Source: Gammaproteobacteria bacterium
Lineage (GTDB): Bacteria > Pseudomonadota > Gammaproteobacteria > UBA6429 > Thiohalophilaceae
Length of the DNA: 64,000 bases
Reading direction: 5' to 3'
NCBI GenBank assembly: GCA_016194635.1
Contig: JACQBC010000032.1
Span: 62,001-126,000 of the forward strand
The position numbers and the translations under genes are program-made. Under the pieces are notes generated by a model. It made no database searches and had not been told where the DNA came from. It worked only from the letters and a program-made list of their open reading frames with translations. Positions 9,430 through 26,997 of this stretch are shown here, in pieces. The stretch's first letter is position 1; each line of letters starts with the position of its first letter.

Positions 9430-10325
9430 ATGGAAAAAATCAAGCACTCGGTCGGTCGAGGCGGGGTAAATACTCCCCGTGACATCGTGATCGTCCAACG
9501 GCTATTGAACCGGCATCAAACCTCCTCCGGCGCGCTGCTGGCGGTGAACAGAATAATGGATGGACACACTCTGTCCAGGCTATTAAGGAGTTTCAGCAGC
9601 GGGTCGTGAAAATGCCCCGTCCCGATGGCCGGGTTGATCCGGGCAAGATGACCGCTGAGCTGTTGTACACTTCGCCGTACCTCGTGGTGATTCAGTCTAT
9701 CGTGGATTATGTAAAATCACTTGTGGCCAATACCGAGACCCAGAAGAAAAAGTCCAGCGCGGGCGAGGCCGTCGTGTTACAAGCCAATATACTCTCACAA
9801 CACAACCAGATTGCGTGGGGCGCGAAAGTCTCGCCGGAGTTTAAGGCCAAGGTCATTAAAATTTGTGATAATTTAGGGATTAACCCCGATTTCTTAATGA
9901 CGTGTATGGCCTTTGAAACCAAAGAGACATTTAGTCCGTCTATAAAAAATGATGCGGGTAGTAGTGGTACGGGTTTAATTCAGTTTATGAAAGATACCGC
10001 AACTGATTTAAATACGACCACTGAAAAGCTTGCCGCAATGTCCGATATACAACAGCTCGATTATGTCGAAAAGTATTTTAAAAATAGAGTACGGATGTAT
10101 AAAAGATTAGACACATTAGAGGATGTCTATTTTGCGATATTAAATCCAATCGGCATTGGAAAAAAAGACGATGACGTTATCTTTACGGAAGGCGTCAAAA
10201 ACGGTGGCTACACCCCCAATAAAGGGCTTGATAAAGACCAGGATGGAAAAATTACCGTCGCAGAAGTAGCGGGTAAAATAAGGCATATGTATCACAGAGG
10301 TTTGAAGCAAGGTTATATCGGGTAA
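9430..10325 (+). pseudogene. Peptidoglycan-binding plus lytic-transglycosylase-like effector, frameshifted
   Basis: A good ribosome site (GAGGGAG) precedes the ATG. The first ~40 codons read SVGRGGVNTPRDIVIVQRLL, a peptidoglycan-binding repeat as found at the N-terminus of secreted cell-wall enzymes. That frame ends soon after, while the continuation of the same domain (AIKEFQQRVVKMPRPDGRVD) lies in another frame, so an indel sits near 9550-9565. The second frame runs about 240 residues with a transglycosylase/SLT-like core: LMTCMAFETKETFSPSI contains the likely catalytic Glu, then GTGLIQFMKDTA. It ends with a DKDQDGKI calcium-like loop. This layout is known from contact-dependent or type VI cell-wall effectors. 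The next gene encodes a lipoprotein that could be its immunity partner. A sequencing error cannot be excluded. Confidence 0.65.
9586..9886 (+). repeat. Direct repeat A, copy 1 (within the lytic-transglycosylase gene)
   Basis: These ~300 bases recur almost unchanged at 10857-11157 (constant offset of 1271). The unit covers the end of the peptidoglycan-binding domain and the start of the enzymatic domain. The few differences are scattered point substitutions, so the duplication is recent but not brand new. Confidence 0.9.
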
Positions 10326-10353
10326 CGGGAAAATATTTTAGGAGGATGAGACG

Positions 10354-10818
10354 ATGACATACCTGCGTTCGGTTATTCTCGGTATGGGGCTGGTGATAGC
10401 CTCCTGTATGGCCGGTGAGCCGAGTAGTGTATGGTATGGCGAATATCATTTTGCGGGATTGGGGGGAGAAACCGGCGGCGGATCACCCATCGTGATGGAC
10501 ATTACACTAAATATACATACGCCCGGTCCCAACGACGCCTGTAATGTGCATATGATAGGCATTCAAAAAGACGAAACCATTTTCTGTACAACCACGGCTA
10601 ACGATAGCAAGATTGATATTAGATTTAAAACCTATGATGATGGTAGAATTTTAAATGGATACGACGTTGCACGGTATAAAGTAGGTGAGATTTTATTTTC
10701 ACTCGAAAAAGCAGTAGGAAAAGATAAGAAAATACTTTATATCCCCCATTGGGCATCGTATGTGCCTTTTGACGATATGGAAAAAGGCGGGAAGTATCAA
10801 TTTGTGAAAACCAAATAA
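10354..10818 (+). CDS. Small lipoprotein, candidate immunity protein of the cell-wall effector
   Basis: This 154-residue protein starts with a lipoprotein signal: charged start, hydrophobic core VILGMGLV, then IASC as lipobox with Cys18. The mature part begins with WYGEYHFAGLGGETGGG, an extracytoplasmic beta-rich pattern seen in small inhibitor-like lipoproteins that accompany lysozyme-type effectors (I believe the DUF5991 type). It starts 28 bases after the effector frame with an excellent AGGAGG site. Location in the periplasmic membrane leaflet fits protection of peptidoglycan. Base composition is AT-richer than the flanking housekeeping genes. The immunity role is inferred from context and signal; no inhibitory activity can be read from the sequence. 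Confidence 0.6.
   Translation: MTYLRSVILGMGLVIASCMAGEPSSVWYGEYHFAGLGGETGGGSPIVMDITLNIHTPGPNDACNVHMIGIQKDETIFCTTTANDSKIDIRFKTYDDGRILNGYDVARYKVGEILFSLEKAVGKDKKILYIPHWASYVPFDDMEKGGKYQFVKTK
10580..10658 (+). repeat. Direct repeat B, copy 1 (inside the immunity-candidate gene)
   Basis: These 79 bases of the lipoprotein gene (encoding IFCTTTANDSKIDIRFKTYD and a few residues more) reappear at 11163-11241 with an offset of 583 and only two or three changes. Confidence 0.88.
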
Positions 10819-10856
10819 TTGTTTTGTTGGCGTGTGATTATTACCGAATAACAAAT

Positions 10857-11157
10857 AGGAGTTTCAACAGCGGGTCGTGAAAATGCCCCGCCCCGATGGC
10901 CGGGTTGATCCGGGCAAGATGACCGCTGAACTGTGGTACACCCCGCCGTACCTCGTGGTGATTCAGTCTATCGTAGAATATATAAAATCACTTGTGGCCA
11001 ATACCGAGGCCCAGAAGAAAAAGTCCAGCGCGGGCGAGGCCGTCGTGTTACAAACCCATATACTCTCACAACACAACCAGATTGCGTGGGGCGCGAAAGT
11101 CTCGCCGGAGTGTAAGGCCAAGGTCATTAAAATTTGTGCAAACTTAGGGATTAACCC
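10857..11157 (+). repeat. Direct repeat A, copy 2
   Basis: This is a near-identical second copy of the segment at 9586-9886, still in frame (KMPRPDGRVDPGKMTAEL is readable). The upstream half of the domain and the whole catalytic core are missing here. It is joined directly at its 3-prime end to a duplicated piece of the immunity-candidate gene. Confidence 0.9.
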
Positions 11158-11241
11158 TACCCTTTTCTGTACAACCACGGCTAACGATAGCAAGATTGAT
11201 ATTAGATTTAAAACCTATGACGATGGTAGAATTTTAAACGG
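10857..11241 (+). pseudogene. Shuffled remnant: effector fragment fused to immunity-gene fragment
   Basis: Repeat A copy 2 and repeat B copy 2 (11163-11241) are fused with about five bases between them. This gives an open frame in which the start of the transglycosylase domain runs into the middle of the lipoprotein (NLGINPTLFCTTTANDSK). The order is what remains if the whole effector-immunity unit was duplicated in tandem and the middle was then deleted. The frame continues past the repeat into unrelated sequence overlapping the next gene. The product lacks the catalytic Glu region and any signal peptide, so it is unlikely to function. Confidence 0.75.
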
Positions 11242-11249
11242 TGTAAATC

Positions 11250-11900
11250 ATGAATCAGATCTTAGTCTATTCAGATTCGCTAACCTGGGGAATCATTCCG
11301 AACACTCGCAAGCGACTTGGTTTTGATCAGCGCTGGCCCGGTGTTATGGAGAATGCGTTACTTGAACGCGGCCGGCGGGTGCGAGTCATTGAGAATTGCC
11401 TCAACGGCCGTCGTACCGCTTGGCCAGATCCCTATAAACCGGGCCGCAATGGTTTAGAGGGCGTGGAGCAAATTATTGAAATGCACTCACCCTTGTCGTT
11501 AGTGATCGTGATGCTGGGGACCAATGATTTCCAGTCCATGCATGCGCACCGTGCCTGGCATGCGGCGCAAGGGGTCAAGGCAATTGTTAACCCGATCCGG
11601 CGCGCACCGGTGGAACCCGGAATGCCTATTGCTCCAATAATAGTAGTGGCCCCGCCCTCTATCGAAAATCCCCGCGGCCCGATTGCGGAAAAATTCCTCG
11701 GCGGCGATGAAAAGTGCACGGGTTTGGCCGAGGAATATCAAGTTGTCGCCGACGAAGTGGGGTGTGGATTTTTTGACGCCGCATCGGTAACGACCGCGAG
11801 TAAGGTCGACGGTATTCATTTGGATGAAGGCCAGCACGGGTTATTAGGTAACGCCTTGGCGCGGCATGTTGTGGAGTTTTATGCGGGAAATCTCGCATAA
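11250..11900 (+). CDS. SGNH/GDSL-family hydrolase
   Basis: This 216-residue protein is a cytoplasmic-looking SGNH hydrolase, an esterase or arylesterase class. Block I is ILVYSDSLTWG with the nucleophile Ser near residue 9; the first Gly of GDSL is replaced by Ser, a known variant. Block III is VIVMLGTNDFQS with the oxyanion Asn, and block V is DGIHLDEGQH with catalytic Asp and His. There is no signal peptide. Its start lies just after the shuffled duplication, so its native promoter may have been replaced; the ribosome site is weak. The substrate is unknown. Confidence 0.88.
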   Translation: MNQILVYSDSLTWGIIPNTRKRLGFDQRWPGVMENALLERGRRVRVIENCLNGRRTAWPDPYKPGRNGLEGVEQIIEMHSPLSLVIVMLGTNDFQSMHAHRAWHAAQGVKAIVNPIRRAPVEPGMPIAPIIVVAPPSIENPRGPIAEKFLGGDEKCTGLAEEYQVVADEVGCGFFDAASVTTASKVDGIHLDEGQHGLLGNALARHVVEFYAGNLA

Positions 11901-15215: not shown

Positions 15216-15714
15216 AAATCACAACGCCACTAAAATACGCATCAGCCAAGTAATAACTTTATTAAATTTGCCGGGAAGATTACCGTACAAATTGTTGTGT
15301 TGTTGCCCCCGGCGTTTGATTCTCGCATGGGGGCTGTCCAGAAAAATCACTAACGTTAGCCGCCTTACTAATGAGGCGTATGGAAAGGATACCCCCCACC
15401 AAGACCGTCAGCAGCAGGAATGCTGCTGTCGAGTCTACAGGGATGTATTGACGGCGTGTCTTGGTGGGGGGGTATCCTTTCCATATGACTCAGTAATAAG
15501 TCGGCCGCGCTGTGAAATATTACCCAACCTATTATGCAGTTGTTCATACATTTTAAAATGCGCCAAGCAGATACTGCTGCGCTATACACGCGACAAGATT
15601 TTATTACCAACCTGGATGACAAAAGCCAATTTCAATCGTTTTATGGATTTAAATGGTCGGGTATGTATCTTGAGCATTTAGCACCGCAACTGAAAAACGC
15701 AGGGAGAGGTAACA
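15216..15714. other. Intergenic region before the HMG-CoA reductase operon
   Basis: About 500 bases hold a large inverted-repeat element at 15379-15485 and, on the right, the leader of the operon ending in a good ribosome site (GGGAGAGGTAACA). A 64-codon frame overlaps the operon start but has no ribosome site. The promoter of the operon must lie here, possibly downstream of the element. Confidence 0.5.
15379..15485. repeat. 107-bp imperfect inverted-repeat element (MITE-like or long hairpin)
   Basis: The left arm starts TATGGAAAGGATACCCCCC and the right arm ends GGGGGTATCCTTTCCATA. The complementary arms extend for about 32 bases (to CCGTCA and TGACGG) with small bulges. Inside lies a second perfect hairpin, CAGCAGCA-GGAA-TGCTGCTG at 15409-15428. 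The flanks are weakly inverted too (TTACTAATGAG against CTCAGTAATA). There is no room for a transposase. It could be a non-autonomous element, an attenuator-like structure or a remnant; no second copy was seen in the window. Confidence 0.75.
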
Positions 15715-18237
15715 ATGAAAAATATTAAGGCTACTCTAGGGTTGGATCATGGCGCACTTAATCTGATAGACCAGGTCATCACAGACTACAATGATACACC
15801 ATCACCGTTCACGCCGAATAATTTCGAGCAAACCGAATCAACAGATACTAAATCTACTAAGTTCGCACGCGTTCCCGGCACGGGTATTCATACTGAAGCG
15901 GCGCGGCAAACACGCCTGAATTTTATTAAAGCGCATACAGCAACCAAACTTCAGCACGTGGAAAACACCTCGTTTGAGGCAAAAAGACTCAGCAATAATA
16001 TTGAGTCGTTTATAGGCTCGATCGAAGTACCGGTTGGTATTGCCGGGCCCCTTAAAATAAATGGGCGGCACGCGAGCGGGGTATTTTATGCGCCGATAGC
16101 CACGTCGGAAGGCGCCCTGATTGCATCCATGTCGCGCGGTGCCTACGCACTTTCAACCGCCGGAGGTGTTACCACCCGAGTGCTCGCCCAGCGCATGATG
16201 CGCGTGCCTATGTTTTTATTCGCGGATCTTTCTAGGGCGGCGTTATTTGCCAATTGGGTGGAGGAATATAACCTCGAAATCAAGGCTGAAGCCGAAAAAC
16301 ATTCAAACTACGCAAGACTAATAGAATTGACACCGCAAGTATTCGGCAAGGCGGTGCATCTGCATTTTGTCTATGAAACTGGAGATGCCGCTGGACAAAA
16401 CATGACAACCACCTGCACTTGGCAGGCGTGTTTATGGATCCTAAAACGCACAAAACAGCGCAACGACTTTGCTGTGGAAAAATTTGTTGTGGAGGGTGGC
16501 TTATCGAGTGATAAAAAAGTGTCGTATTTGAGTCTCATCAAGGGTCGGGGGGTAAGGGTCCAAGCCGAGGCGTTGTTGCCTGCGCGGGTTGTCAGGCGGG
16601 TGCTTAAAACCACACCCCATGATATAAAAGATATCTGGAACCAATTTGCGATTGGTGCCACAGGCGCCGGTATTATCGGATTAAACGTAAATATAGCCAA
16701 TGCGATTGCCGGTATGTTTGTTTCCACCGGGCAAGATATTGCGTGCGTACATGAAAGTGCATTGGCCACTACTTTCTTTGATGTGACGCGTGAAGGAGAT
16801 CTGTACGTCTGCATGTCAATGCCAACACTCCCTATTGGAACCATAGGCGGTGGCACCAGGTTACCGCACCAGCGCGAGTGTCTGGAAATGTTGGGTTGTT
16901 ATGGCGCGGGGAACGCGCATAAACTCGCCGAAATTATCATTGGCTTTTGCCTGGCACTGGATCTATCAACCACTGCGGCGATCGTGGCCGGTCACTTCGC
17001 CACGGCCCATGAAATGCTGGGAAGAAACCGGGACATCAATCATTTAAAGCTCGGCGAGTTAAACGAGGAATTCTTTCAAGCCTATTTGCGTATGGCAAAC
17101 GCCGATGCAACGCTTAAGGTAAAAGAAATCATCAGTCTCAATAGTATGGAATCCGGCAGCTCGTTGATCACCGAGATGACGGCGAGAAAACTCAAAAAAA
17201 CCGTCGGCTTGTTCCCATTCGAGATTGTTTATGAAAGCGGGCAACGAACTTTATCCCAGTGTGTTATGGCGAAAATCAAACCCAGCTCAAAAGAAGTAGT
17301 GGGTGCATTAAACCAACTGGCCAGTATGTGTGGTGCGGAGTTGGCTGAGGAATTCGATAAGTACAAACACGAGGTGGGCCTGGGGGGCACCGATCGACGA
17401 GAGCTCGCTGTCTATCGTCAAACCGATAAACGTTTTACTCAACATATTCCTCAAGTGTTTGGGATATATGAAGACCTTGAACGGGAATCGTTTGTTATCG
17501 TGCAAGAGTTGCTTACCGATATGGAATTGATGGACTCCGCCAACGATGTTTCGCGCTGGACGGACGCTCACCTGCAGGCGGCTTTAAAGGGTATAGCGGC
17601 ATGTCATGCCATTTGGTTTGAAAAAGAAGACGGCCTAAAAGCCAGTGATTGGTTAGGAGATTATCCCACGGCTGAACGACGTTGCAGGTTGATGCGCTTA
17701 TATGGTTTATTAAATACTTACGCGTTACACGAATTTCCGCATTGGATCGGCGAAAAAGAATTCGCACGGTTTCAGGCTATTTTGGAGGCCATGCCGGGGT
17801 GGTGGGCGAAAATGCAGGCCATGCCAAAAACACTGATCCACAATGACTTCAACCCCAGAAACCTGGCGTTTCGCAAGACTACCGAGGGGTTACGCTTGTG
17901 TGTGTATGACTGGGAGTTGGCGACGATCCATTTACCCCAGGTTGATGTGGTCGAATTGCTGGCGTATACCTTAGCTAACGACGTAACACCTAGACGCGTG
18001 GTTAATTTAGTTAACTTTCATCGTCAGCAGCTTGAGCAGCAGATTGGAAAAACGATTGCCGCTGATAGTTGGTGGGAAGGGTTTCGTTACGCAACTTGGG
18101 ACTTTTTCATCAGCAGGATGTCATTATATTTAATGACGCACGCCTTCAGGAACTATGAATTTATTGAGCGGGTATATGCTTCCTTGTGGAAACTGCTCGA
18201 TATTGTTGACGAGTACGAAATCACAGCAATCGAATAA
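15715..18237 (+). CDS. Class I HMG-CoA reductase fused to APH-like kinase
   Basis: This 840-residue fusion is the first gene of a six-gene operon. Residues ~60-445 are a class I HMG-CoA reductase: VPVGIAGPLKING, catalytic Glu132 in ATSEGALIAS, NADPH loop DAAGQNM (224-230), catalytic Lys in SDKKVSYLS (266-268), Asp341 in VSTGQD, IGTIGGGTRLPHQRECLEML, and His432 in GHFATAHEM. All catalytic residues are present, so HMG-CoA reduction to mevalonate is expected. Residues ~500-840 form an aminoglycoside/choline-kinase-like domain with HNDFNPRN (Asp711, Asn716) and YDWE (Asp732), so it should bind ATP-Mg and phosphorylate a hydroxyl. Mevalonate or a product alcohol is a tempting substrate but is inference. 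The N-terminal 55 residues are polar and unassigned. There are no membrane spans, unlike eukaryotic HMGR. Confidence 0.9.
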   Translation: MKNIKATLGLDHGALNLIDQVITDYNDTPSPFTPNNFEQTESTDTKSTKFARVPGTGIHTEAARQTRLNFIKAHTATKLQHVENTSFEAKRLSNNIESFIGSIEVPVGIAGPLKINGRHASGVFYAPIATSEGALIASMSRGAYALSTAGGVTTRVLAQRMMRVPMFLFADLSRAALFANWVEEYNLEIKAEAEKHSNYARLIELTPQVFGKAVHLHFVYETGDAAGQNMTTTCTWQACLWILKRTKQRNDFAVEKFVVEGGLSSDKKVSYLSLIKGRGVRVQAEALLPARVVRRVLKTTPHDIKDIWNQFAIGATGAGIIGLNVNIANAIAGMFVSTGQDIACVHESALATTFFDVTREGDLYVCMSMPTLPIGTIGGGTRLPHQRECLEMLGCYGAGNAHKLAEIIIGFCLALDLSTTAAIVAGHFATAHEMLGRNRDINHLKLGELNEEFFQAYLRMANADATLKVKEIISLNSMESGSSLITEMTARKLKKTVGLFPFEIVYESGQRTLSQCVMAKIKPSSKEVVGALNQLASMCGAELAEEFDKYKHEVGLGGTDRRELAVYRQTDKRFTQHIPQVFGIYEDLERESFVIVQELLTDMELMDSANDVSRWTDAHLQAALKGIAACHAIWFEKEDGLKASDWLGDYPTAERRCRLMRLYGLLNTYALHEFPHWIGEKEFARFQAILEAMPGWWAKMQAMPKTLIHNDFNPRNLAFRKTTEGLRLCVYDWELATIHLPQVDVVELLAYTLANDVTPRRVVNLVNFHRQQLEQQIGKTIAADSWWEGFRYATWDFFISRMSLYLMTHAFRNYEFIERVYASLWKLLDIVDEYEITAIE

Positions 18238-18278
18238 ACCTTGGTACACACGCCGCACAAACTTTAAGCGGAGGAATT

Positions 18279-19481
18279 ATGAGAGCACAGAGTGATATCC
18301 AAAGCAATTCCCGCCACCATGGCATGGGTGATTTTTTTATTATCCGCCTGAATGTGGTTGATATGGTTACATTGTCGGGTGTTGTATTGTCATGCATCAG
18401 TATCGCCCTGATGCTCAATGGAAAACGGGAGCTATCCTTAGCGATCCTATATTTAGCGGTGATCGCCGATGCTTTTGATGGTGTGTTGGCGCGTAAATTA
18501 AAACTCGAAAGAGATTTTGGCCGCTACTTGGACGGGTTTGTGGATACGCTGGATTATCTAGTGGCGCCGGCTTTATTTGTGTTTTTATGGGGATTCAATG
18601 CCTGGTACCAGGGTTTGTTACTGGTAATATTCATCATGTGCGGCTTTATTCGGCTTGCGGTTTTTAATCAAGTGGGGAATATTACCAATGCCGAGCATCG
18701 CTTGAGTTACTGGGGCGCGCCCGTGTTCTGGAGTACGCTGGCGCTCGGGCCGATTTTTATCGCCCACTGGTTCATCCATAAAGAATTAGTTTTCTATCTA
18801 TTAATGTTAATACTGCCCCTGTTTTCGATTGCAATGTTACACAACGGACAGTATTACAAATTCAAAAGCCCACTGGTGATGCTGACCGGGCTATTGGCAT
18901 TCAGCATGTTATTTATCAATACGGAATTCAGTGCATGGCAGAAACACATGTTAACCGCGGTTCTGGCCATTTTCCCCTTGGTGTTTGCCGGCGTATTGCA
19001 TATGTTGGTGGTTAAGCATAATTTTCTACAGACTTTAGCAATACCGATTAACAAAACGTGGTTTGGCGCCTCGAAGACGTGGCGCGGGGTGGTCGTGATG
19101 CCGTTATTCTGCGCGGCGGGGTTTTATATAATGGATAGATTTTTCAACGTTACTATCGCGCATTTGAGCTTTGATATAAATCGTTATTCGCCTGTTGCCT
19201 TAGGTTTGATGCTCGGCCTGGCGTATATTATGGCTGAACTGCCTAATTCATTCATAAAAAGAAGAATGGGAATAGCCGCTGGGGCATTGCCAGGCAAACA
19301 TAAATTAATTTTTATCATGGCGGATCAGCTTGATTCCGTGATTGGCTGTGGATTGGTGTACGTCATCGTGGTGGGCATGCCACTGGTGACTTTCTTGTAT
19401 CTTACTGTTATCGGTGTATACATTGCCTTGGCGGTAAAAAGTATTTTGTACTACTTGGGGTACAAGAAAACACGGGCCTAG
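18279..19481 (+). CDS. CDP-alcohol phosphotransferase fused to CDP-archaeol-synthase-like (CarS) domain
   Basis: This 400-residue polytopic membrane protein has two enzymatic parts. Near the N-terminus the complete CDP-OH-P signature D-x2-D-G-x2-A-R-x8-G-x3-D-x3-D is present as Asp64, Asp67, Gly68, Ala71, Arg72, Gly81, Asp85 and Asp89. The C-terminal ~145 residues match the CarS/DUF46 fold that makes CDP-archaeol from CTP: SKTWRG (265-270), AELPNSFIKRRMGI (319-332) and ADQLDSVIG (348-356). One polypeptide could therefore activate a lipid phosphate with CTP and then exchange CMP for an alcohol head group. The gene is 41 bases after the HMGR-kinase gene and 24 before the next. The lipid and head group are unknown. 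Both motifs look intact. Confidence 0.85.
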   Translation: MRAQSDIQSNSRHHGMGDFFIIRLNVVDMVTLSGVVLSCISIALMLNGKRELSLAILYLAVIADAFDGVLARKLKLERDFGRYLDGFVDTLDYLVAPALFVFLWGFNAWYQGLLLVIFIMCGFIRLAVFNQVGNITNAEHRLSYWGAPVFWSTLALGPIFIAHWFIHKELVFYLLMLILPLFSIAMLHNGQYYKFKSPLVMLTGLLAFSMLFINTEFSAWQKHMLTAVLAIFPLVFAGVLHMLVVKHNFLQTLAIPINKTWFGASKTWRGVVVMPLFCAAGFYIMDRFFNVTIAHLSFDINRYSPVALGLMLGLAYIMAELPNSFIKRRMGIAAGALPGKHKLIFIMADQLDSVIGCGLVYVIVVGMPLVTFLYLTVIGVYIALAVKSILYYLGYKKTRA

Positions 19482-19505
19482 TTTATAACGCTAGGGCGGG
19501 CGCCT

Positions 19506-20261
19506 ATGAATATAAAAACACTAAAAACACTGGTCATTACATCCAAAGTAACCTTTGCGCCGGATAATTACGATCCTTTAATTATTGGGTTGGCGTCCTG
19601 CCCGCAAGTCGGCGGTTTATTGGTATTAAATAATAGAAGCTTGTCTATTTTTGTCCGATCAATCGGAGCTTTGGTGCATGGAGCTTATCACTTAGGAACT
19701 ACACTGATCAGCAATCACTTCAGTAACAGCCAAGAACGCCGTGAGCGCGCCTATCGAACCCATGGCAAACCGGTCTGGACTCTAAAATGTCTAAATGGCC
19801 CCGAGGTATTAAAAATCATTGCTGAAAATCAGTTTGATCTGCTATTAAATGCACGGACGCGAGTGTTTTTTGAAAAGCCCCTCCTTGAACAACCACGGCT
19901 GGGCGCAATAAACATTCATCATGGATTATTGCCCGAGCAACGCGGACTGATGTGCGATCTGTGGTCATTATCGAGCGATGAACCCTCGGGATTTTCGCTG
20001 CATAAAATGAACGCTGAAATTGACAGCGGTGGTATTGTAAAAGTCGTCAAGGTGTCTGACGGCACCGATAAAGACTATATAGGCTATTTAAATAAAGCCT
20101 CGCAGGTAGAGTTAGAGACGGTTTGTGAAACGCTTCAAGACATCGAGTCAGCGGGAGAAATTAAAACCTTTCCGAATATCAAGTCCAGCGATCGGCCGAG
20201 GTACACCGACCCTACTCGCCAAGATATTAAACGCATTAAATGCAAAGGGGTGTTGCTATGA
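19506..20261 (+). CDS. Formyltransferase-fold enzyme (Fmt/PurN type)
   Basis: The 251 residues contain the formyltransferase core. Asn136 and His138 in AINIHHGLLPEQRG are followed 37 residues after the Asn by Asp173 in NAEIDSGGIV, matching the N-H-D triad of folate-dependent formyltransferases. The N-terminal ~110 residues are a divergent Rossmann half, and the OB-type C-terminal domain of Fmt is missing, so it is not a tRNA formyltransferase. It probably formylates an amine with 10-formyl-tetrahydrofolate. Its stop overlaps the start of the next gene (ATGA), so the two are translationally coupled. The substrate is presumably an intermediate of the operon pathway, which is inference. Confidence 0.8.
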   Translation: MNIKTLKTLVITSKVTFAPDNYDPLIIGLASCPQVGGLLVLNNRSLSIFVRSIGALVHGAYHLGTTLISNHFSNSQERRERAYRTHGKPVWTLKCLNGPEVLKIIAENQFDLLLNARTRVFFEKPLLEQPRLGAINIHHGLLPEQRGLMCDLWSLSSDEPSGFSLHKMNAEIDSGGIVKVVKVSDGTDKDYIGYLNKASQVELETVCETLQDIESAGEIKTFPNIKSSDRPRYTDPTRQDIKRIKCKGVLL

Positions 20262-22777
20262 GTAAACTACTGGTAGCCCTGCACGGCAACCCAGGCGATA
20301 GTAGCGATTTCGATATGTTGTTAAATAAACTCGCAATTGATACACAAGCCAACATCATTGTTCCTCGCCGGCCGGTTGCGGGGGCTGATCTCGATCGATT
20401 GAGTATTGCTATTGAGGCCAATATAGCGCTCTTCACCCCAAGCGAGGTCACGGTAATCGCTTATTCCTGGGGGTGTTATCTTGCGTGCTGGTGGCTTGTT
20501 ACCAGCCAGTGTAATATAACCAAACTGATCCTTATCAGCCCGACGATCGTTGCGGAAAACCCCCTGTCTTGGTTCGCGATAATACTCACCAAGCTGCCTG
20601 TTATTGGTAATCTTCTGCTAAAGAAAATAGCAAAAACCAAATCCCATGAGTTTATTGAAAAAAGTTTCTACCCGCAGCAGGCTTCGGTGCAGGACCGAGC
20701 CAGCCTCTACAACAAACTCAATAATCCGCTGTTATGGAGGGGCGCCATCCGTTATAAATACCAGCAGCAAGCACGTGGTATAAATAAGTTAAAACCGATT
20801 GATAATATCAATACAATCATTATACGCGGCACGCTGGATAACGCCGCCAATTGGCCCATGCAGCAACAGGCACTGCGCAGGCTTTTCCCAGCCTGGGACA
20901 AGGTTTGTGTACATGCGATCCAACATGCCGGCCATGCCTTGCCCTGGACCGCAACAAACCAACTTGTCCAGATTATACAAAGCGAAATCGGTTTAAAAAC
21001 TACACATCTTTGCTCAAGCATGGAATATTCATCGAAGCAAGATCAACATAACGTGGTTTCATTTCTAAAGCAGCATGCGCAGCGAACCCCGCGCAGGATT
21101 GCATTACGCTGGGCGCTCCCCGATGAAGTACAGGCTTTTAGCGGCGATGTGACGACAAAATTTAACGCCAATGAGATTAATTATGCGGACCTCTACCAGC
21201 GGATCGGATGTTTGGCACAAGGATTGGCGGAGCTTGGTCTGCACTCGGGTGATCGGGTTATTGTATTTTTGCCGATGAGCCTGGAGATGTATGTCGCAAT
21301 GTTTGCGATTCAGTATATTGGCGCGATTGCGGTTTTTTTGGATTCATGGGCGCGCCGAAATCAATTGGGCGCCAGCGCCCGGTGTGTGACACCCAGGGCG
21401 ATGATCAGTCATAAGCGGGCCTTTGACGTCATCGCGGGAATACCCGAACTTGATGCTATACCGTTACGGATTATCGCCGGGCCTGGCTATGACGACTCGT
21501 TCTGTGCGCAACTGGAAACGTTGCTGGCGACGCCTGGCCGCGCAGCGATGAGCGCGGTGAACCCCGATGACACCGCGTTAATCACTTTCACCACCGGAAG
21601 TTCCGGCGAGCCCAAGGGCGCAAACCGGACCCACCGATTCTTATACGCGCAACACGCGGCCCTCACTGCGGTGGTGCCCTATCGAGATCAGGCAACGGAT
21701 ATACCGGCATTTCCGATTTTTTCCCTGAACAATCTAGCGAGCGGGATAACCACCGTGCTGCCCGCCATCGACCTCGCGCGGCCGCATCCCAACGACGCCG
21801 CGGCGCTGGTCAGCCAGGTACTGCATGAAAAAATCACTTGCACAACGCTCTCGCCGTCGATGTTAAATGGTCTTTCCGATTTTTGCAGGCGTAGCAATAT
21901 ACAACTTGCCTCGATCCAGCGCGTTATTACCGGTGGCGCGCCGATTAGCCGGGATAATGTGCGTGACTTCCACGCTATCGCGCCGGCCGCGGAGATCTGG
22001 ATATTGTACGGATCCACGGAAGTGGAACCCATGGCCCATATCGAAGCCAAAGAAATGTTGGCTTTGGAAAACCACCCTGATGTGGAAATCGTTGAGGAAG
22101 GTGTCAACGTCGGCCACATTGCTCCTGGCTTGAACTATAAATTCATCAAGCCGTACAAAGACGCCATTGATTTCGCTCAGTTTAAGTGGGAAGAATGGGA
22201 GGTGCGCAGTGGTGAAGTGGGTGAATTTATTGTGGCGGGAGACCACGTTTGCGCCGATTATTATAACAACAATAATGCATTCTTCAGGACAAAAATCCGT
22301 GCACAAGACGGCACGGTCTGGCATCGAACCGGCGACCTAGCGCGCCTGGATGAGCGCGGTTACCTTTGGGTCGTTGGTCGGGTTCACACTATGATTTGCA
22401 GACAGGGTCAAAACTTTTACCCCGTCAAGGCTGAAGTATTGTTGAATCGCTGTAGCTTCATCAAAAAAGCCGCGTTTTTGGGTATTGACGATGGGCGTCT
22501 GGGTGAACGTACCGCCGTAGTTGTAGAGTTTTGCGCCGGATTCCAAGACAAGCCGGCGGGGATCAAGGAAATTCTACGCCTGTTTCACAAAAACAAGCTG
22601 CGGGTGGATTCCTTATATGAAGTTGATGCCATCCCCATGGACCCTAGGCACCATAGCAAGGTGGAATACGGCTTATTGCGCACCAAGCTTCATGCCGAGC
22701 GGATTAAAGATCTGCTAGCTCAGCAAAAGAAAACACTGGAAAAAATTCAACATGCACTCACCGACGATAGCTTTTGA
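20258..22777 (+). CDS. Alpha/beta hydrolase-acyl-adenylating enzyme fusion (OleC-like ANL domain)
   Basis: The product is about 839 residues. The ATG overlapping the previous stop has AAAGGGG upstream; an ATG six codons earlier is less likely. Residues 1-~245 form an alpha/beta hydrolase: LLVALHGNPGDSSDF (oxyanion loop), nucleophile Ser70 in IAYSWGC, acid Asp194 in IRGTLD, and His226 in HAGHALPW. From ~260 an ANL adenylating domain follows with P-loop TFTTGSSGEPKG (443-454), YGSTE, HRTGDLARLDERGYLWVVGR and a C-terminal Lys in HHSKVEYG. The pattern around DIPAFPIFSL and the Pro-rich loop after it recalls OleC, the beta-lactone synthetase of olefin clusters, which also occurs fused to OleB. However, the hydrolase here has a Ser, not the Asp of OleB. 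It probably activates a carboxylic or beta-hydroxy acid as AMP ester. Confidence 0.85.
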   Translation: MSKLLVALHGNPGDSSDFDMLLNKLAIDTQANIIVPRRPVAGADLDRLSIAIEANIALFTPSEVTVIAYSWGCYLACWWLVTSQCNITKLILISPTIVAENPLSWFAIILTKLPVIGNLLLKKIAKTKSHEFIEKSFYPQQASVQDRASLYNKLNNPLLWRGAIRYKYQQQARGINKLKPIDNINTIIIRGTLDNAANWPMQQQALRRLFPAWDKVCVHAIQHAGHALPWTATNQLVQIIQSEIGLKTTHLCSSMEYSSKQDQHNVVSFLKQHAQRTPRRIALRWALPDEVQAFSGDVTTKFNANEINYADLYQRIGCLAQGLAELGLHSGDRVIVFLPMSLEMYVAMFAIQYIGAIAVFLDSWARRNQLGASARCVTPRAMISHKRAFDVIAGIPELDAIPLRIIAGPGYDDSFCAQLETLLATPGRAAMSAVNPDDTALITFTTGSSGEPKGANRTHRFLYAQHAALTAVVPYRDQATDIPAFPIFSLNNLASGITTVLPAIDLARPHPNDAAALVSQVLHEKITCTTLSPSMLNGLSDFCRRSNIQLASIQRVITGGAPISRDNVRDFHAIAPAAEIWILYGSTEVEPMAHIEAKEMLALENHPDVEIVEEGVNVGHIAPGLNYKFIKPYKDAIDFAQFKWEEWEVRSGEVGEFIVAGDHVCADYYNNNNAFFRTKIRAQDGTVWHRTGDLARLDERGYLWVVGRVHTMICRQGQNFYPVKAEVLLNRCSFIKKAAFLGIDDGRLGERTAVVVEFCAGFQDKPAGIKEILRLFHKNKLRVDSLYEVDAIPMDPRHHSKVEYGLLRTKLHAERIKDLLAQQKKTLEKIQHALTDDSF

Positions 22778-23705
22778 CAAAACTAAAACACTTAATCGCT
22801 GGTGGACATTTATACGCGAGCGATTTCCCCTTGTGGAGCACGCGGTAAGTATCTTCTGTTTGACGCTTGCCAATAGTGTTGTCGCCTGCGCGATTACCGC
22901 GAGGGATTTTAATAGTTATAATTTCTGCATCGCCTATACTGTCTGCTTGTTATTCTTCTTTCGGCTGCGGTGTTTTGATGAAATAAAAGACTATGCGACC
23001 GACAAGCTGGTTAATCCAGCCCGGCCTTTGGCAAGGGGGCTGATTAGCCAAGGGGATGTTAAGCGCATGTTTGTACTCCTCACCCTCGCCGAAATGGTGT
23101 TGGTGAGCTTGCTGGGGGCCAGCGCCTTGTTAGCGCACTCGATAGCGGTTGTTTATAGTTACCTGATGTACAAGGAGTTTTTTATAGGAAAATATTTATC
23201 CCCGCACCTAACCACCTATGCATTGACCCATACCTTTGTTTCGGTGCTGGTGGCGTATTCCATATTTTCACAATTGACGGGCACCGGTGTGGACAGATTC
23301 ACTGTGGAGTTAGTGGTATTTGGGTTGGCCAGTTGGGCGATATTCAATTTGTTCGAGTTCGCGCGAAAAACCTACGCCCCGTTAGAAGAACGTAACAACG
23401 TTGCCACTTATACCACAACCTTCGGCAGTGTTGGCGCCGTCGTGCTGAGTTTGAGCCAAATCGCGGCGTCGATACTGGTGATAGTTTATCTTTACCGGCA
23501 CAACACCATTTTCGACCTGACGAATATTTATTATTACCTAGTGGCCGCGTCGGTTCCGGTTTTATCAGGGATCCTGTTTCTTATCAGGGAAACCCCGGGT
23601 TCGGCCAGGCTCTTCCGCGCTACCTGCGCCGTGTATCTAATAGCCTATTACGGGTTGGTCGCTTACCAGGGTTTTACCAGCCACAACGTTTTTCACAGTG
23701 CATAA
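22752..23705 (+). CDS. UbiA-family prenyltransferase
   Basis: This 317-residue membrane protein has about nine hydrophobic helices. The first aspartate-rich motif is complete: Asp76, Asp80 and Asp84 in RCFDEIKDYATDKL, followed by NPARPLARG, the Mg-diphosphate site of UbiA enzymes. The second Asp motif is replaced by EFARKTYAPLEERN (202-215), an E-x2-R-K form seen in an uncharacterised subgroup. It should transfer a prenyl chain, or bind a polyprenyl diphosphate, at the membrane. Its start overlaps the preceding gene by 26 bases, so it is co-translated. In archaea a UbiA enzyme makes the second ether bond of membrane lipids, a useful comparison given the CarS-like neighbour, but no direct evidence for that reaction exists here. 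Confidence 0.88.
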   Translation: MHSPTIAFDKTKTLNRWWTFIRERFPLVEHAVSIFCLTLANSVVACAITARDFNSYNFCIAYTVCLLFFFRLRCFDEIKDYATDKLVNPARPLARGLISQGDVKRMFVLLTLAEMVLVSLLGASALLAHSIAVVYSYLMYKEFFIGKYLSPHLTTYALTHTFVSVLVAYSIFSQLTGTGVDRFTVELVVFGLASWAIFNLFEFARKTYAPLEERNNVATYTTTFGSVGAVVLSLSQIAASILVIVYLYRHNTIFDLTNIYYYLVAASVPVLSGILFLIRETPGSARLFRATCAVYLIAYYGLVAYQGFTSHNVFHSA

Positions 23706-23723
23706 TCAGGCGGTTTATATCCC

Positions 23724-26414
23724 ATGTTAGTACAAAGAAACTCTACCGATTATTTTGCAAGAAATGAATCCGGCGGAAAGGGCTACAATCTTTATTTAAT
23801 GCAGCAAGCCGGGATCCCGGTTCCCGATTGGGTGATTGTGGGTAAATCGGTGTACGGCGCCTTTATATCAAAGAGCGGTCTTTTACCCAAAATAAACCAG
23901 TTAATACAGGCATTTCAGGCTAACACGCTCGGCGCAGGGCAGCTGTCTGACGGCGTTAAACGATTAATAATAGACACCACGTTACCTCCTGATATTGTGA
24001 GTCTGGTTAATGAGGCTTACCAAAAAGTAGCGCGCGGTGGGATGATCGCGGTGCGTTCATCCGCGGCCGATGAGGACGGTTCGACCTACTCGTTCGCGGG
24101 TCAGTTATCGTCGTATTTGTACGTGAACACCGTTGTGGATGCGGCACGCTACCTTAAGCTTTGCTGGGCCTCGGCGTTTTCCGCAAGGGCCATCGCCTAC
24201 CGCGTGGAAAATACATTATCGTTGCAGGATGTTTCGGTGGCGGTGATTTTCCAAACGATGATCGACCCGGACGCGTCAGGGGTGATGTTTACGTGTGACC
24301 CGGCGGATGCCACCGCCGATAACTATGTCATCAGCGCGGTGTATGGCGTCGGCGAGGGTCTGGTCTCGGGCCTACTGGAGTGTGATACTTTTTGGGTCGA
24401 GGCCCAGAGCGGGCGACTTCTCCGCCGTGAGATCGTGGAAAAACAGCGAATGCTACGGCAGGGGGGCTCGGGTCACTGTGAGCCGCAGGCGGTTGATCCC
24501 GCCAAGACGCGGCTTCCCACCCTTGACCATGCTCAATTAAATGAATTGATCGCCCTGGGGGCAACGCTGCGTGAAATATACAAAATGCCACAAGACATCG
24601 AGTGGGCGATAGCCGCCGGGCAGTTGTTCATACTACAAACCCGTCCGGTGACGACTATCAAGTACAACACCCAGGGATTTCCCAACCTATGGGATAACGC
24701 TAATATCGTCGAGAGTTATGCCGGGATAACCTTACCGTTGACTTTCAGCTTCGCGTTAGAAAATTACAAAAACGTGTACATTCAGTTTTGTGGAATTCTC
24801 GGTGTGTCCGCGGCGGTGGTGAAAGACATGGAGCACTATTTAGGTAATATGCTGGGCTGCATTAACGGACGGGTTTTCTACAATTTATACAATTGGTATA
24901 AATTAGTCGGAGTATTACCCGGATTCAAACACAACCGGCAGTTTATGGAGACCATGATGGGGGTTGGACAGTCTTTGTCCGCCGAGATAAAAGAACGTAT
25001 CGAGCCCCACCCTTCGTGGAATACCCTGCTCGGAAGACTCCGTAAGTTACGCACCGGATTAACCTTCATCTACTACCATTTCACGATCAACGCCATAGTC
25101 GAGAAATTTCTGCGTGATTTTGACCGGGACTACCAAATTTATCGTCGAAAACCGTTCTCAAAAATGCGCGGCGATGAGCTTTTCAGGTTGTATATCGAGA
25201 TAAATAGGAAATTTCTTAATAAATGGAAAGCACCGATTATTAACGATTTTTTGTGTATGGTGCACTTCGGGATTTTAAATAAACTCACTGTAAAATGGCT
25301 TTCCCAAGTCAATTGTAACCTGCAAAATGATCTTTTAGCGGGGGGTGGCGACTTAGAAAGCGCTGAACCCACTAAAATGTTAATCCGCTACGCGAATGAA
25401 ATAAGCGACAATCAAGCGCTACATGCCCTTGTTATGTCCACCCCCGATTACGTTTTATTTGAAGCATTAAAACAGAGCGACTTCCAGGAGTTTTATGCCA
25501 AGGTTTGCCATTACATCGATCGCTTTGGGTATCGCTGCAACAGTGAAATGAAGCTGGAAGTCAAAGATTTGTATGTTGATCCAAGTTTTATGTTTACTTG
25601 CATCAAGAACTATATTCGCGCGGGAATCAGCGTCACCTCGGCCTCGGCAGGCAGGGAAAAGGCGTTGCGCGCTGCGGCTGAAACTACACTAAATGCGGCG
25701 CTGCACGGCTGGAAAAAAATACTTTACCGGTGGTCATTAAATCATGCCCGGCAAGCGTTGAAAAATCGTGAAAATACGCGGTTTTCCCGCACCCGCATAT
25801 ATGGGGTGGTGCGGGCGCTATTCAGGGAACTTGGAGCGCGTTTACGTCAAGACGGGGTGATTACAGCACCCGAGGATATCTACTATCTCACTTTGCAAGA
25901 ACTGTACGGCATCTATCAGGGGACGCTTACCAGTTATAACTTGAAAGCCTTGGCGGCGCTACGCAAACATGATTATTGCGATTACCAATCACTAGAACCA
26001 AAAATTCGTTTTCAAACCCGTGGACCGGTGTACTGGAAAAATGATTTTCTGGAGAAGCCAGACCCAACCCCGATCTCCCCCGGCACAGAGTGTGACTTAA
26101 GCGGTATCGCTTGTTGTCCCGGGATAGTCGAGGCCAAGGTTCGGGTGATCCATTCGCTCACGGATGATCTGGTCTTGAATGGCGAGATACTGGTTGCCAT
26201 GCGGACTGATCCGGGCTGGGTCCCGATCTTTCCCAGCATATCCGGCTTGTTGGTTGAGCGCGGCAGTCTGCTTTCGCATTCGGCGATCGTCGCGCGCGAA
26301 ATGGGTATTCCTGCCGTCGTCGGCATTAAGGGTCTGTTAACCACGTTAACCGACGGTATGGTAGTACGTATGGACGGTAAAAACGGTACAGTTAAAATTC
26401 TGAAACGCGCTTAG
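23724..26414 (+). CDS. PEP-synthase/rifampicin-phosphotransferase-like dikinase
   Basis: The 896 residues have the layout of rifampicin phosphotransferase rather than true PEP synthase. An N-terminal ATP-grasp domain (GGKGYNLYLMQQAGIPVPDW, AVRSSAADEDGSTYSFAGQ, EWAIAAGQLFILQTRPV) covers ~1-310. A middle domain opens with LWDNANIVESYAGITLPLTF, and a C-terminal swivelling domain carries the phosphohistidine His852 in RGSLLSHSAIVAREMGIPA. The PEP/pyruvate barrel of PpsA is absent. Such enzymes split ATP to AMP and phosphate and move the beta-phosphate through His to a hydroxyl in the middle domain. As the last gene of the operon it likely phosphorylates a pathway intermediate. Drug inactivation is possible but less fitting in this setting. 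Confidence 0.85.
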   Translation: MLVQRNSTDYFARNESGGKGYNLYLMQQAGIPVPDWVIVGKSVYGAFISKSGLLPKINQLIQAFQANTLGAGQLSDGVKRLIIDTTLPPDIVSLVNEAYQKVARGGMIAVRSSAADEDGSTYSFAGQLSSYLYVNTVVDAARYLKLCWASAFSARAIAYRVENTLSLQDVSVAVIFQTMIDPDASGVMFTCDPADATADNYVISAVYGVGEGLVSGLLECDTFWVEAQSGRLLRREIVEKQRMLRQGGSGHCEPQAVDPAKTRLPTLDHAQLNELIALGATLREIYKMPQDIEWAIAAGQLFILQTRPVTTIKYNTQGFPNLWDNANIVESYAGITLPLTFSFALENYKNVYIQFCGILGVSAAVVKDMEHYLGNMLGCINGRVFYNLYNWYKLVGVLPGFKHNRQFMETMMGVGQSLSAEIKERIEPHPSWNTLLGRLRKLRTGLTFIYYHFTINAIVEKFLRDFDRDYQIYRRKPFSKMRGDELFRLYIEINRKFLNKWKAPIINDFLCMVHFGILNKLTVKWLSQVNCNLQNDLLAGGGDLESAEPTKMLIRYANEISDNQALHALVMSTPDYVLFEALKQSDFQEFYAKVCHYIDRFGYRCNSEMKLEVKDLYVDPSFMFTCIKNYIRAGISVTSASAGREKALRAAAETTLNAALHGWKKILYRWSLNHARQALKNRENTRFSRTRIYGVVRALFRELGARLRQDGVITAPEDIYYLTLQELYGIYQGTLTSYNLKALAALRKHDYCDYQSLEPKIRFQTRGPVYWKNDFLEKPDPTPISPGTECDLSGIACCPGIVEAKVRVIHSLTDDLVLNGEILVAMRTDPGWVPIFPSISGLLVERGSLLSHSAIVAREMGIPAVVGIKGLLTTLTDGMVVRMDGKNGTVKILKRA

Positions 26415-26538
26415 GGTGCCTAGAGTAATATCAGTGAGGTAAGCCGAATCACATAACCCATCAGCACCGACTAAGCCCACCGAGCCAAGGTTATTATGTG
26501 CTATACCTAAATGAGTGGTGAACTACAAGGGCGTGTAC

Positions 26539-26997
26539 ATGATTAGTCATGGAGTCATACGTTTAGCCAATCGCCGTGATATCCCCTACATCGCAGTGTT
26601 ATCGCGGGATAGCGTGGAGCAGGGCTTGGGTTGGAGCTGGACAGCGGCGCGGGTGGGTAAAAGTTTGCAGGATGAATCCACCAATGTGGTGGTTGCCAGC
26701 ACCGCCACCAAGCTGCTGGGGTTCGGCATTATGGAGTACAACCTCAATGACGCACACCTGGTATTATTGGCGGTTGATCCTACGGTGCGTCGGCAGGGGA
26801 TCGGTTCCAGGTTAATGGCATGGCTGGAGTTAACCTGTTCTACCGCCGGGATTGGCAATATTGGTCTTGAGGCGCGGGTGATCAATACGCGCGCGCGGAC
26901 TTTTTATTACCGGCTTGGATACCATGAAATTAACATTATTCCAAGGTTTTACCATGGCCGCGAAGATGCGGTGCGGATGATGAAAAAACTGTGGTAG
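26539..26997 (+). CDS. GNAT-family N-acetyltransferase (RimI-like)
   Basis: The protein has about 152 residues with the acetyl-CoA loop VDPTVRRQGIGSRLM (Q/R-x-x-G-x-G/S) and the C-terminal YYRLGY motif that follows N-T-x-A-x-x-F/Y in RimI-like enzymes (here INTRARTFYYRLGYHEI). The ATG was chosen because AAGGG precedes it; two in-frame GTG codons further upstream are less likely. It starts 125 bases after the six-gene operon on the same strand and may or may not belong to it. The substrate could be an amine of the operon product or a protein N-terminus. Confidence 0.85.
   Translation: MISHGVIRLANRRDIPYIAVLSRDSVEQGLGWSWTAARVGKSLQDESTNVVVASTATKLLGFGIMEYNLNDAHLVLLAVDPTVRRQGIGSRLMAWLELTCSTAGIGNIGLEARVINTRARTFYYRLGYHEINIIPRFYHGREDAVRMMKKLW

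Follow-up and report, generated by a model that had tools for sequence, protein, structure and literature searches.

The six-gene operon described here (g1 to g6) may make a phosphodiester that is probably amphiphilic and has an alcohol other than glycerol as its backbone, a reading to which we give a probability of about 0.5. The genes lie in a window of 64,000 nucleotides, the whole stretch of DNA that was analyzed (contig JACQBC010000032.1, positions 62,001 to 126,000), from a gammaproteobacterial genome (GCA_016194635.1) of 3.7 Mb that is 99% complete.

Operon layout and surroundings

The ORF list of the window places all six genes on the + strand, with exact coordinates that agree with the positions given in an earlier note on this DNA. 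Consecutive genes are separated by 41 and 24 bases, then overlap by 22 and 26 bases, and are separated by 18 bases ahead of g6; the three gaps are those described before. The domain calls made in that note hold as well: every domain of g1-g6 exceeds its curated Pfam cut-off, the UbiA domain of g5 being the weakest (36.3 versus 34.2 bits), and all six genes are intact by motif. The stretch had been called AT-richer than its flanks, and the GC content is indeed ~0.45–0.52 over g1-g6 compared with 0.53–0.64 in most flanking DNA; the dip begins before the operon, near 9 kb, and includes other genes. The operon is absent from all 39 other genomes of its family, in which the sole partial match is a stand-alone HMG-CoA reductase (HMGR)-like gene in a single genome (L125), and the acquisition proposed earlier is probable.

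The sequence around the operon contains additional features. Duplicated blocks at positions 9586-11326 (300 nt at 95% identity, 1271 from start to start, and 83 nt at 96% identity) carry partial ORF copies, gene debris upstream of the operon that resembles an island edge. A 39-nt inverted repeat (15359-15397 / 15467-15505, 87% complementary), 210 bases 5' of g1, could be a mobile-element remnant or a regulatory hairpin. Promoter scanning found 10 candidates versus 17.3 expected from shuffled sequences, no better than chance. The 137-aa ORF at 15268-15681, which has no convincing family, and an unrelated upstream MOSC ORF were rejected as operon members. On the other side, 100 bases past g6 and on the same strand, a RimI-like GNAT acetyltransferase (26515-26997) lies outside the conserved operon and could be a mere neighbor or a further modifying enzyme.

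Distribution of the HMGR-kinase fusion

The first distant full-length homolog of g1 came from a plasmid of Streptomyces NBC_01435 (39% identity over 96%). An alignment of the two proteins was used to scan one genome per species, which revealed 127 relatives in several phyla, and 80 loci were kept. The titles of these loci include Gammaproteobacteria, Myxococcota, Alphaproteobacteria, Actinomycetota, Bacteroidota, Spirochaetes, Nitrospiraceae, and Thermincola, and many of the relatives are MAG contigs. Neighborhoods were defined as 10 kb around the fusion, with ORFs called mechanically, clustered, and searched with profiles. The earlier note had proposed a search for the same six genes in other genomes: five of the six recur within 10 kb of the fusion in 23 other loci, with the CDP-OH_P, CarS, and ligase parts taken to represent g2 and g4, but the formyltransferase (g3) is rare.

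The most common arrangement is found in 22 gammaproteobacterial loci, in which UbiA, HMGR-kinase, PPDK, a tandem-GNAT gene named c4, AMP ligase, CDP-OH_P, and CarS follow each other in this order on one strand. Hosts include Marinobacter, Thalassolituus, Moraxellaceae, Endozoicomonas, Kosakonia, Limnobaculum, and gamma proteobacterium HdN1, whose complete genome carries the operon; in L059 and L095, the arrangement is shortened or reshuffled. CDP-OH_P and CarS occur as separate or fused genes, varying among these loci. Genes for MMPL, a LolA-like protein, and a putative outer-membrane protein (c10) are often found upstream, as for an exported amphiphile. The HMGR-kinase of L055 is the sister of g1 (FastTree support 0.94), and L071, a MAG labeled Beijerinckiaceae, has the gammaproteobacterial gene set in another order. 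The barest core is that of L117, a Flavobacteriales MAG, where HMGR-kinase, CarS, and CDP-OH_P follow one another, overlapping or nearly in contact; in L119, the succession is PPDK, HMGR-kinase, and CarS. The L117 gene order, which would read as reduce, phosphorylate, activate with CTP, and transfer, supports the chemistry proposed below.

The recurrence of this gene set around the HMGR-kinase in distant genomes bears out the earlier view of one operon and functional unit, and the conserved operon in relatives clearly contradicts a lack of co-conservation. It also weighs on the idea that unrelated genes were gathered by chance in an acquired island, which the low GC content, the absence from relatives, and the gene debris with its duplicated 300-base block upstream would suit. 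With the same set beside the fusion in many distant genomes, we give that idea almost no credence.

A remodeled HMGR fused to a kinase

The first gene, g1 (15715..18237, + strand), encodes a probable HMGR-type acyl-CoA reductase fused to an APH-fold small-molecule kinase. The HMGR-type part (HMG-CoA_red, 380.8 bits; Pfam) spans residues 64-437, and the kinase part (APH, 42.2 bits) spans residues ~470-830. In the AlphaFold2 model (pLDDT 86), superposition of the predicted HMGR part on human HMGR (1dqa) gives a Z score of 38.6, and the predicted kinase part matches the corramycin phosphotransferase 8agy with a Z score of 19.1, among the matches listed. The kinase motifs HNDFNPRN and YDWE are present, and the reductase catalytic residues E132, K267, D341, and H432 are kept. 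Thus, g1 has the fold (Z 38) and the four catalytic residues of class I HMGR (human 1dqa and Methanothermococcus 6hr7) but differs from it in an acyl pocket altered at the equivalents of S684, K735, H752, and L853, in an NADP loop that reads DAAGQN instead of DAMGMN, and in the fused kinase.

We aligned 79 fused sequences with the human and Methanothermococcus HMGRs, using human numbering. The equivalents of E559, K691, D767, and H866 are kept wherever a fused sequence extends over the site (78 or 79 of 79), and those of R590 and K692 are also retained in the family. In human HMGR, K735 pairs with the HMG carboxylate, and both S684 and K735 are HMG-contacting residues. In the fused family, S684 is replaced by E or D (79/79; E260 in g1), H752 by N or D (79/79), and L853 by T (78/79), while no conserved lysine is found at K735, where g1 has Q310. 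Since the catalytic residues are kept and the pocket is changed, we infer that the fused family has preserved catalysis in a remodeled HMG pocket and that its substrate is not HMG-CoA; the most economical reading is that the HMGR domain of g1 would carry out a four-electron reduction of a different acyl-CoA. The retained R590 and K692 count against this reading.

The K735 equivalent is also missing from stand-alone HMGR homologs of Vibrio, Sinorhizobium, and other Proteobacteria (L023-L039, L043, and L044), which mostly read DA[AS]GQN, so that 'HMG-CoA reductase' may be a misnomer for them too. In Sinorhizobium meliloti (L044), the stand-alone gene lies amid acyl-CoA carboxylase, biotin carboxylase, and MmgE/PrpD genes.

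The earlier note had named g1 an HMGR-kinase and left the use of mevalonate open. On a reading in that line, g1 would be a genuine HMGR whose mevalonate goes into an isoprenoid or a head group. The fold and the catalytic residues agree with this, but the HMG-contacting residues are altered family-wide. That note also asked whether the genome has a mevalonate or an MEP pathway: g1 is the only HMGR of the host genome, which contains DXR of the MEP route and gives no match to mevalonate-diphosphate decarboxylase (TIGR01240). On the changed pocket, the presence of DXR, and the missing decarboxylase, we rejected a role in mevalonate or isoprenoid supply and consider true HMG-CoA reduction very unlikely. 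The former label 'isoprenoid/phospholipid-type' therefore survives in part: lipid-type CDP-alcohol chemistry stands, whereas the isoprenoid half now depends on UbiA as its single support.

Domains and motifs of g2 to g6

The second gene, g2 (18279..19481, + strand), probably encodes a CDP-alcohol phosphotransferase (CDP-OH_P_transf, residues 25-171) fused to a CarS-like CTP transferase (residues 260-397; Pfam). The CDP-alcohol motif DxxDGxxAR(x8)GxxxDxxxD is intact in g2 (DAFDGVLARKLKLERDFGRYLDGFVD) and in each of the 26 loci that gave a profile hit, and the same fusion occurs in L055 with 49% identity. The best NCBIfam models, archaetidylserine synthase and pssA, match below cut-off. The CarS-like part scores 35.8 bits against a Pfam cut-off of 22, yet only 44.7 with NF003114 against an equivalog cut-off of 148; by these scores, it is a relative of archaeal CDP-archaeol synthase and not identical with it. 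CTP activation followed by CDP-alcohol transfer would be common to g2 and the archaeal CarS/archaetidylserine synthase pair, with serine-type transferases as the nearest NCBIfam models, but g2 falls far under the curated cut-offs and has its domains fused. No archaeal ether-lipid genes were recognized near the operon.

The g3 protein (19506..20261, + strand) is a formyltransferase (Formyl_trans_N, 39 bits; Pfam) for a probable N-formylation step. It has the triad N136-x-H138 ... D173, with NIHHGLLPEQRG at 136 and DSGGI at 173, and the SLLP-like loop HHGLLPEQRG. The next gene, g4 (20240..22777, + strand), encodes an alpha/beta hydrolase (residues 11-237) fused to a putative AMP-forming acyl ligase (residues 277-815; PRK09274/OleC-like by Pfam/NCBIfam) with the motifs TTGSSGEPK, YGSTE, and HRTGD; the ligase is 47% identical to that of L123 and about 30% identical to the gammaproteobacterial ones. 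OleBC fusions likewise join an alpha/beta hydrolase to an AMP ligase. The g4 ligase falls in the PRK09274/OleC neighborhood but scores 225 against the OleC equivalog cut-off of 900. The OleABCD olefin pathway was ruled out because the ligase is far below the OleC cut-offs and no OleA or OleD was recognized nearby.

The last two genes are g5 (22752..23705, + strand), for a UbiA-superfamily membrane transferase with the motif DEIKDYATD (a pattern found in 37 of the 38 UbiA genes of these loci, window included), and g6 (23724..26414, + strand), for a PEP-synthase-type dikinase with an ATP-grasp part and a phospho-histidine domain (PPDK_N, 255 bits; PEP-utilizers, 83 bits; Pfam), whose phospho-histidine motif SHSAIVAR starts at residue 851. 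The g6 protein passes the NCBIfam model NF004881, 'phosphoenolpyruvate synthase' (1069.8 versus a cut-off of 883), and PigC/RedH models match too. Its nearest solved chains are 5fbs and 5hv1, the best PDB match being 5fbs, an entry named phosphoenolpyruvate synthase; both are known as rifampin phosphotransferases, 5fbs from Listeria. From its likeness to PEP synthase and PigC, g6 may act as a kinase on a hydroxyl group or power a condensation reaction.

A proposed N-acyl or N-formyl module

Most relatives carry c4, a protein of about 380 aa in the common gammaproteobacterial operon, instead of the formyltransferase. Its AlphaFold2 model, built with 25 relatives (pLDDT 91), matches tandem GNAT acyltransferases (best Foldseek E value 9e-12), a likeness seen by fold comparison alone, as a sequence search against the PDB gave no match. 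The c4 profile also finds E. coli YghO (hmmsearch E value 9e-26 in a one-sequence comparison; hhalign 98.7%). For the acyl-CoA N-acyltransferase step in rhodobacterial dihydroceramide synthesis, yghO is listed alongside the Caulobacter gene CC_1154 (PMC9386255). In E. coli K-12 (NC_000913.3; L126:7044-8216), RefSeq names yghO a putative DNA-binding regulator, yet it is a homolog of tandem-GNAT N-acyltransferases.

The host genome of the window has no match to c4, and profile comparison finds c4 unrelated to either the g4 hydrolase or g3. Beside other HMGR-kinases, a g3-type gene occurs in L123 only (33% identity), where it again adjoins a g4-like ligase; with the two genes together in L123 as well, they appear to travel together. 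N-formylation by g3 likely replaces the N-acylation of relatives. The formylation proposed earlier applies to the window locus; most relatives have an N-acyltransferase-type gene instead.

Alternative settings of the fusion

A DUF3419/BtaA-like gene lies by the fusion in eight loci (L068, L070, L072, L073, L102, L110, L113, and L123) of Myxococcota and others, with no CDP-OH_P or CarS nearby. Whole-genome searches found no CarS in all six BtaA-locus genomes tested, so a different head-group step would be needed there. Conversely, most CarS genomes tested are without DUF3419, but L124, L071, and the genome of the window have it elsewhere. The divergent DUF3419 (BtaA-like) protein of the host genome is on another contig (G000:C30:280695-281633). 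Strict exclusion between BtaA and CarS was consequently rejected genome-wide and applies within the locus only. BtaA moves a 3-amino-3-carboxypropyl group from SAM, so the CarS and BtaA settings would both give an amino-acid head.

In Actinomycetota, the HMGR-kinase is found with c7, DUF6182, GH3, and a thymidylate-kinase-like gene, and CarS and CDP-OH_P are absent. GH3 enzymes couple acids to amino acids. The pairing with GH3 and DUF6182 without CarS or CDP-OH_P shows that the fusion can be reused as a module and serves other products as well. The uncharacterized c7 protein (L092:7017-8159 and relatives; about 380-450 aa) has no Pfam or NCBIfam match, is unrelated to c4 by profile comparison, and may faintly resemble nucleotide-binding proteins of the class I aminoacyl-tRNA-synthetase type. 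The thymidylate-kinase-like c5/c17 have a partial, fold-level similarity only to E. coli YghR/YghS.

A proposed composite model of the pathway

We combined these data in a composite model in which we infer every reaction from family membership. First, the AMP ligase would activate a carboxylic acid that ends as a CoA thioester. Second, the HMGR-type domain would reduce this thioester to a primary alcohol with two NADPH. Third, the fused kinase domain would phosphorylate the alcohol made by its HMGR partner, as the fusion suggests. Fourth, the CarS-like domain would activate the phosphate with CTP. Fifth, the phosphatidylserine-synthase-like domain would put a small alcohol in the place of CMP; serine is the simplest choice, since PssA and archaetidylserine synthases are its nearest models. 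Sixth, an amine in the product would be N-formylated by g3 here and N-acylated by the YghO/ceramide-synthase-type GNAT in most relatives. UbiA and the dikinase may add or activate a further group, and MMPL with its partners would export the product in Gammaproteobacteria. An alternative order is equally compatible: an N-acyl amino acid would be made first and its carboxyl then reduced and phosphorylated, through a ceramide-1-phosphate-like intermediate.

UbiA, a companion of the fusion in almost every gammaproteobacterial locus, also raises a prenyl route. Here, the HMGR domain would turn a prenoic acyl-CoA into a prenol, the kinase and dikinase would convert this to a mono- or diphosphate, UbiA would transfer the prenyl chain, and CarS/CDP-OH_P would then add a polar head. 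The thymidylate-kinase-like gene of Actinobacteria and some Bacteroidota could make the diphosphate. This route is nonetheless unlikely, given that the annotated recurrent neighbors included no recognizable prenyl synthase or terpene-acid gene and that UbiA is missing from the minimal core in L117.

It is also conceivable that the CDP-alcohol enzymes decorate a soluble phosphorylated secondary metabolite, such as an antibiotic, in place of a membrane lipid. An antibiotic kinase and a glucosamine kinase are the best structural matches of the kinase domain among the matches listed, g6 resembles prodigiosin ligase, several loci have MFS or ABC exporters, and very large ORFs that give AMP-ligase-like matches lie near the Streptomyces NBC_01435 fusion. 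The membrane families CarS, CDP-OH_P, and UbiA and the gammaproteobacterial MMPL and LolA-like partners fit a lipid better, which makes this reading unlikely.

Comparison with a known pathway and implications

The nearest worked example to the amphiphile pathway favored here is the ceramide phosphoglycerate pathway of Caulobacter, which starts from serine palmitoyltransferase (PMC11324152) and uses a CC_1154/YghO-family N-acyltransferase, the lipid kinase CC_1160, the CDP-DAG-synthase-like CC_1161, and the CDP-alcohol-type transferase CC_1159 to make a glycerol-free phosphosphingolipid (PMC11324152, PMC9386255). N-acyltransferase, lipid kinase, CDP-DAG-synthase-like, and CDP-alcohol-transferase-like steps would be common to both systems, as would the use of an acyl-AMP-type ligase. 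The differences are that the phosphorylated alcohol would come here from an HMGR-type reductase with its fused kinase, that UbiA and a PEP-synthase-type dikinase would take part, and that the window operon has a formyltransferase in place of the N-acyltransferase. Neither serine palmitoyltransferase nor AcpR or CerR was recognized among the recurrent neighbors of the fusion. In agreement with the earlier remark that no described pathway has this set, we found no published account of it in the open-access literature; a description may exist elsewhere. The system would belong to the CDP-alcohol lipid pathways, and it may, with a fair likelihood, make a lipid of a new class. More tentatively, and well short of an even chance, this could be a widespread, unrecognized class of glycerol-free lipids, made without serine palmitoyltransferase on an alcohol from an HMGR-derived reductase-kinase, with interchangeable head (CDP-serine or BtaA) and amide (acyl or formyl) modules.

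The annotation of an HMGR, the enzyme blocked by statins, is always taken to mean mevalonate synthesis; g1 appears to be a remodeled relative from a kinase-fused branch that is spread over several phyla and resides in lipid-type operons. If the proposed pathway is true, it would provide a new family of acyl-to-alcohol reductases and a new way of making phosphorylated alcohols, and environmental bacteria would probably have a new lipid that is secreted or placed in the outer membrane.
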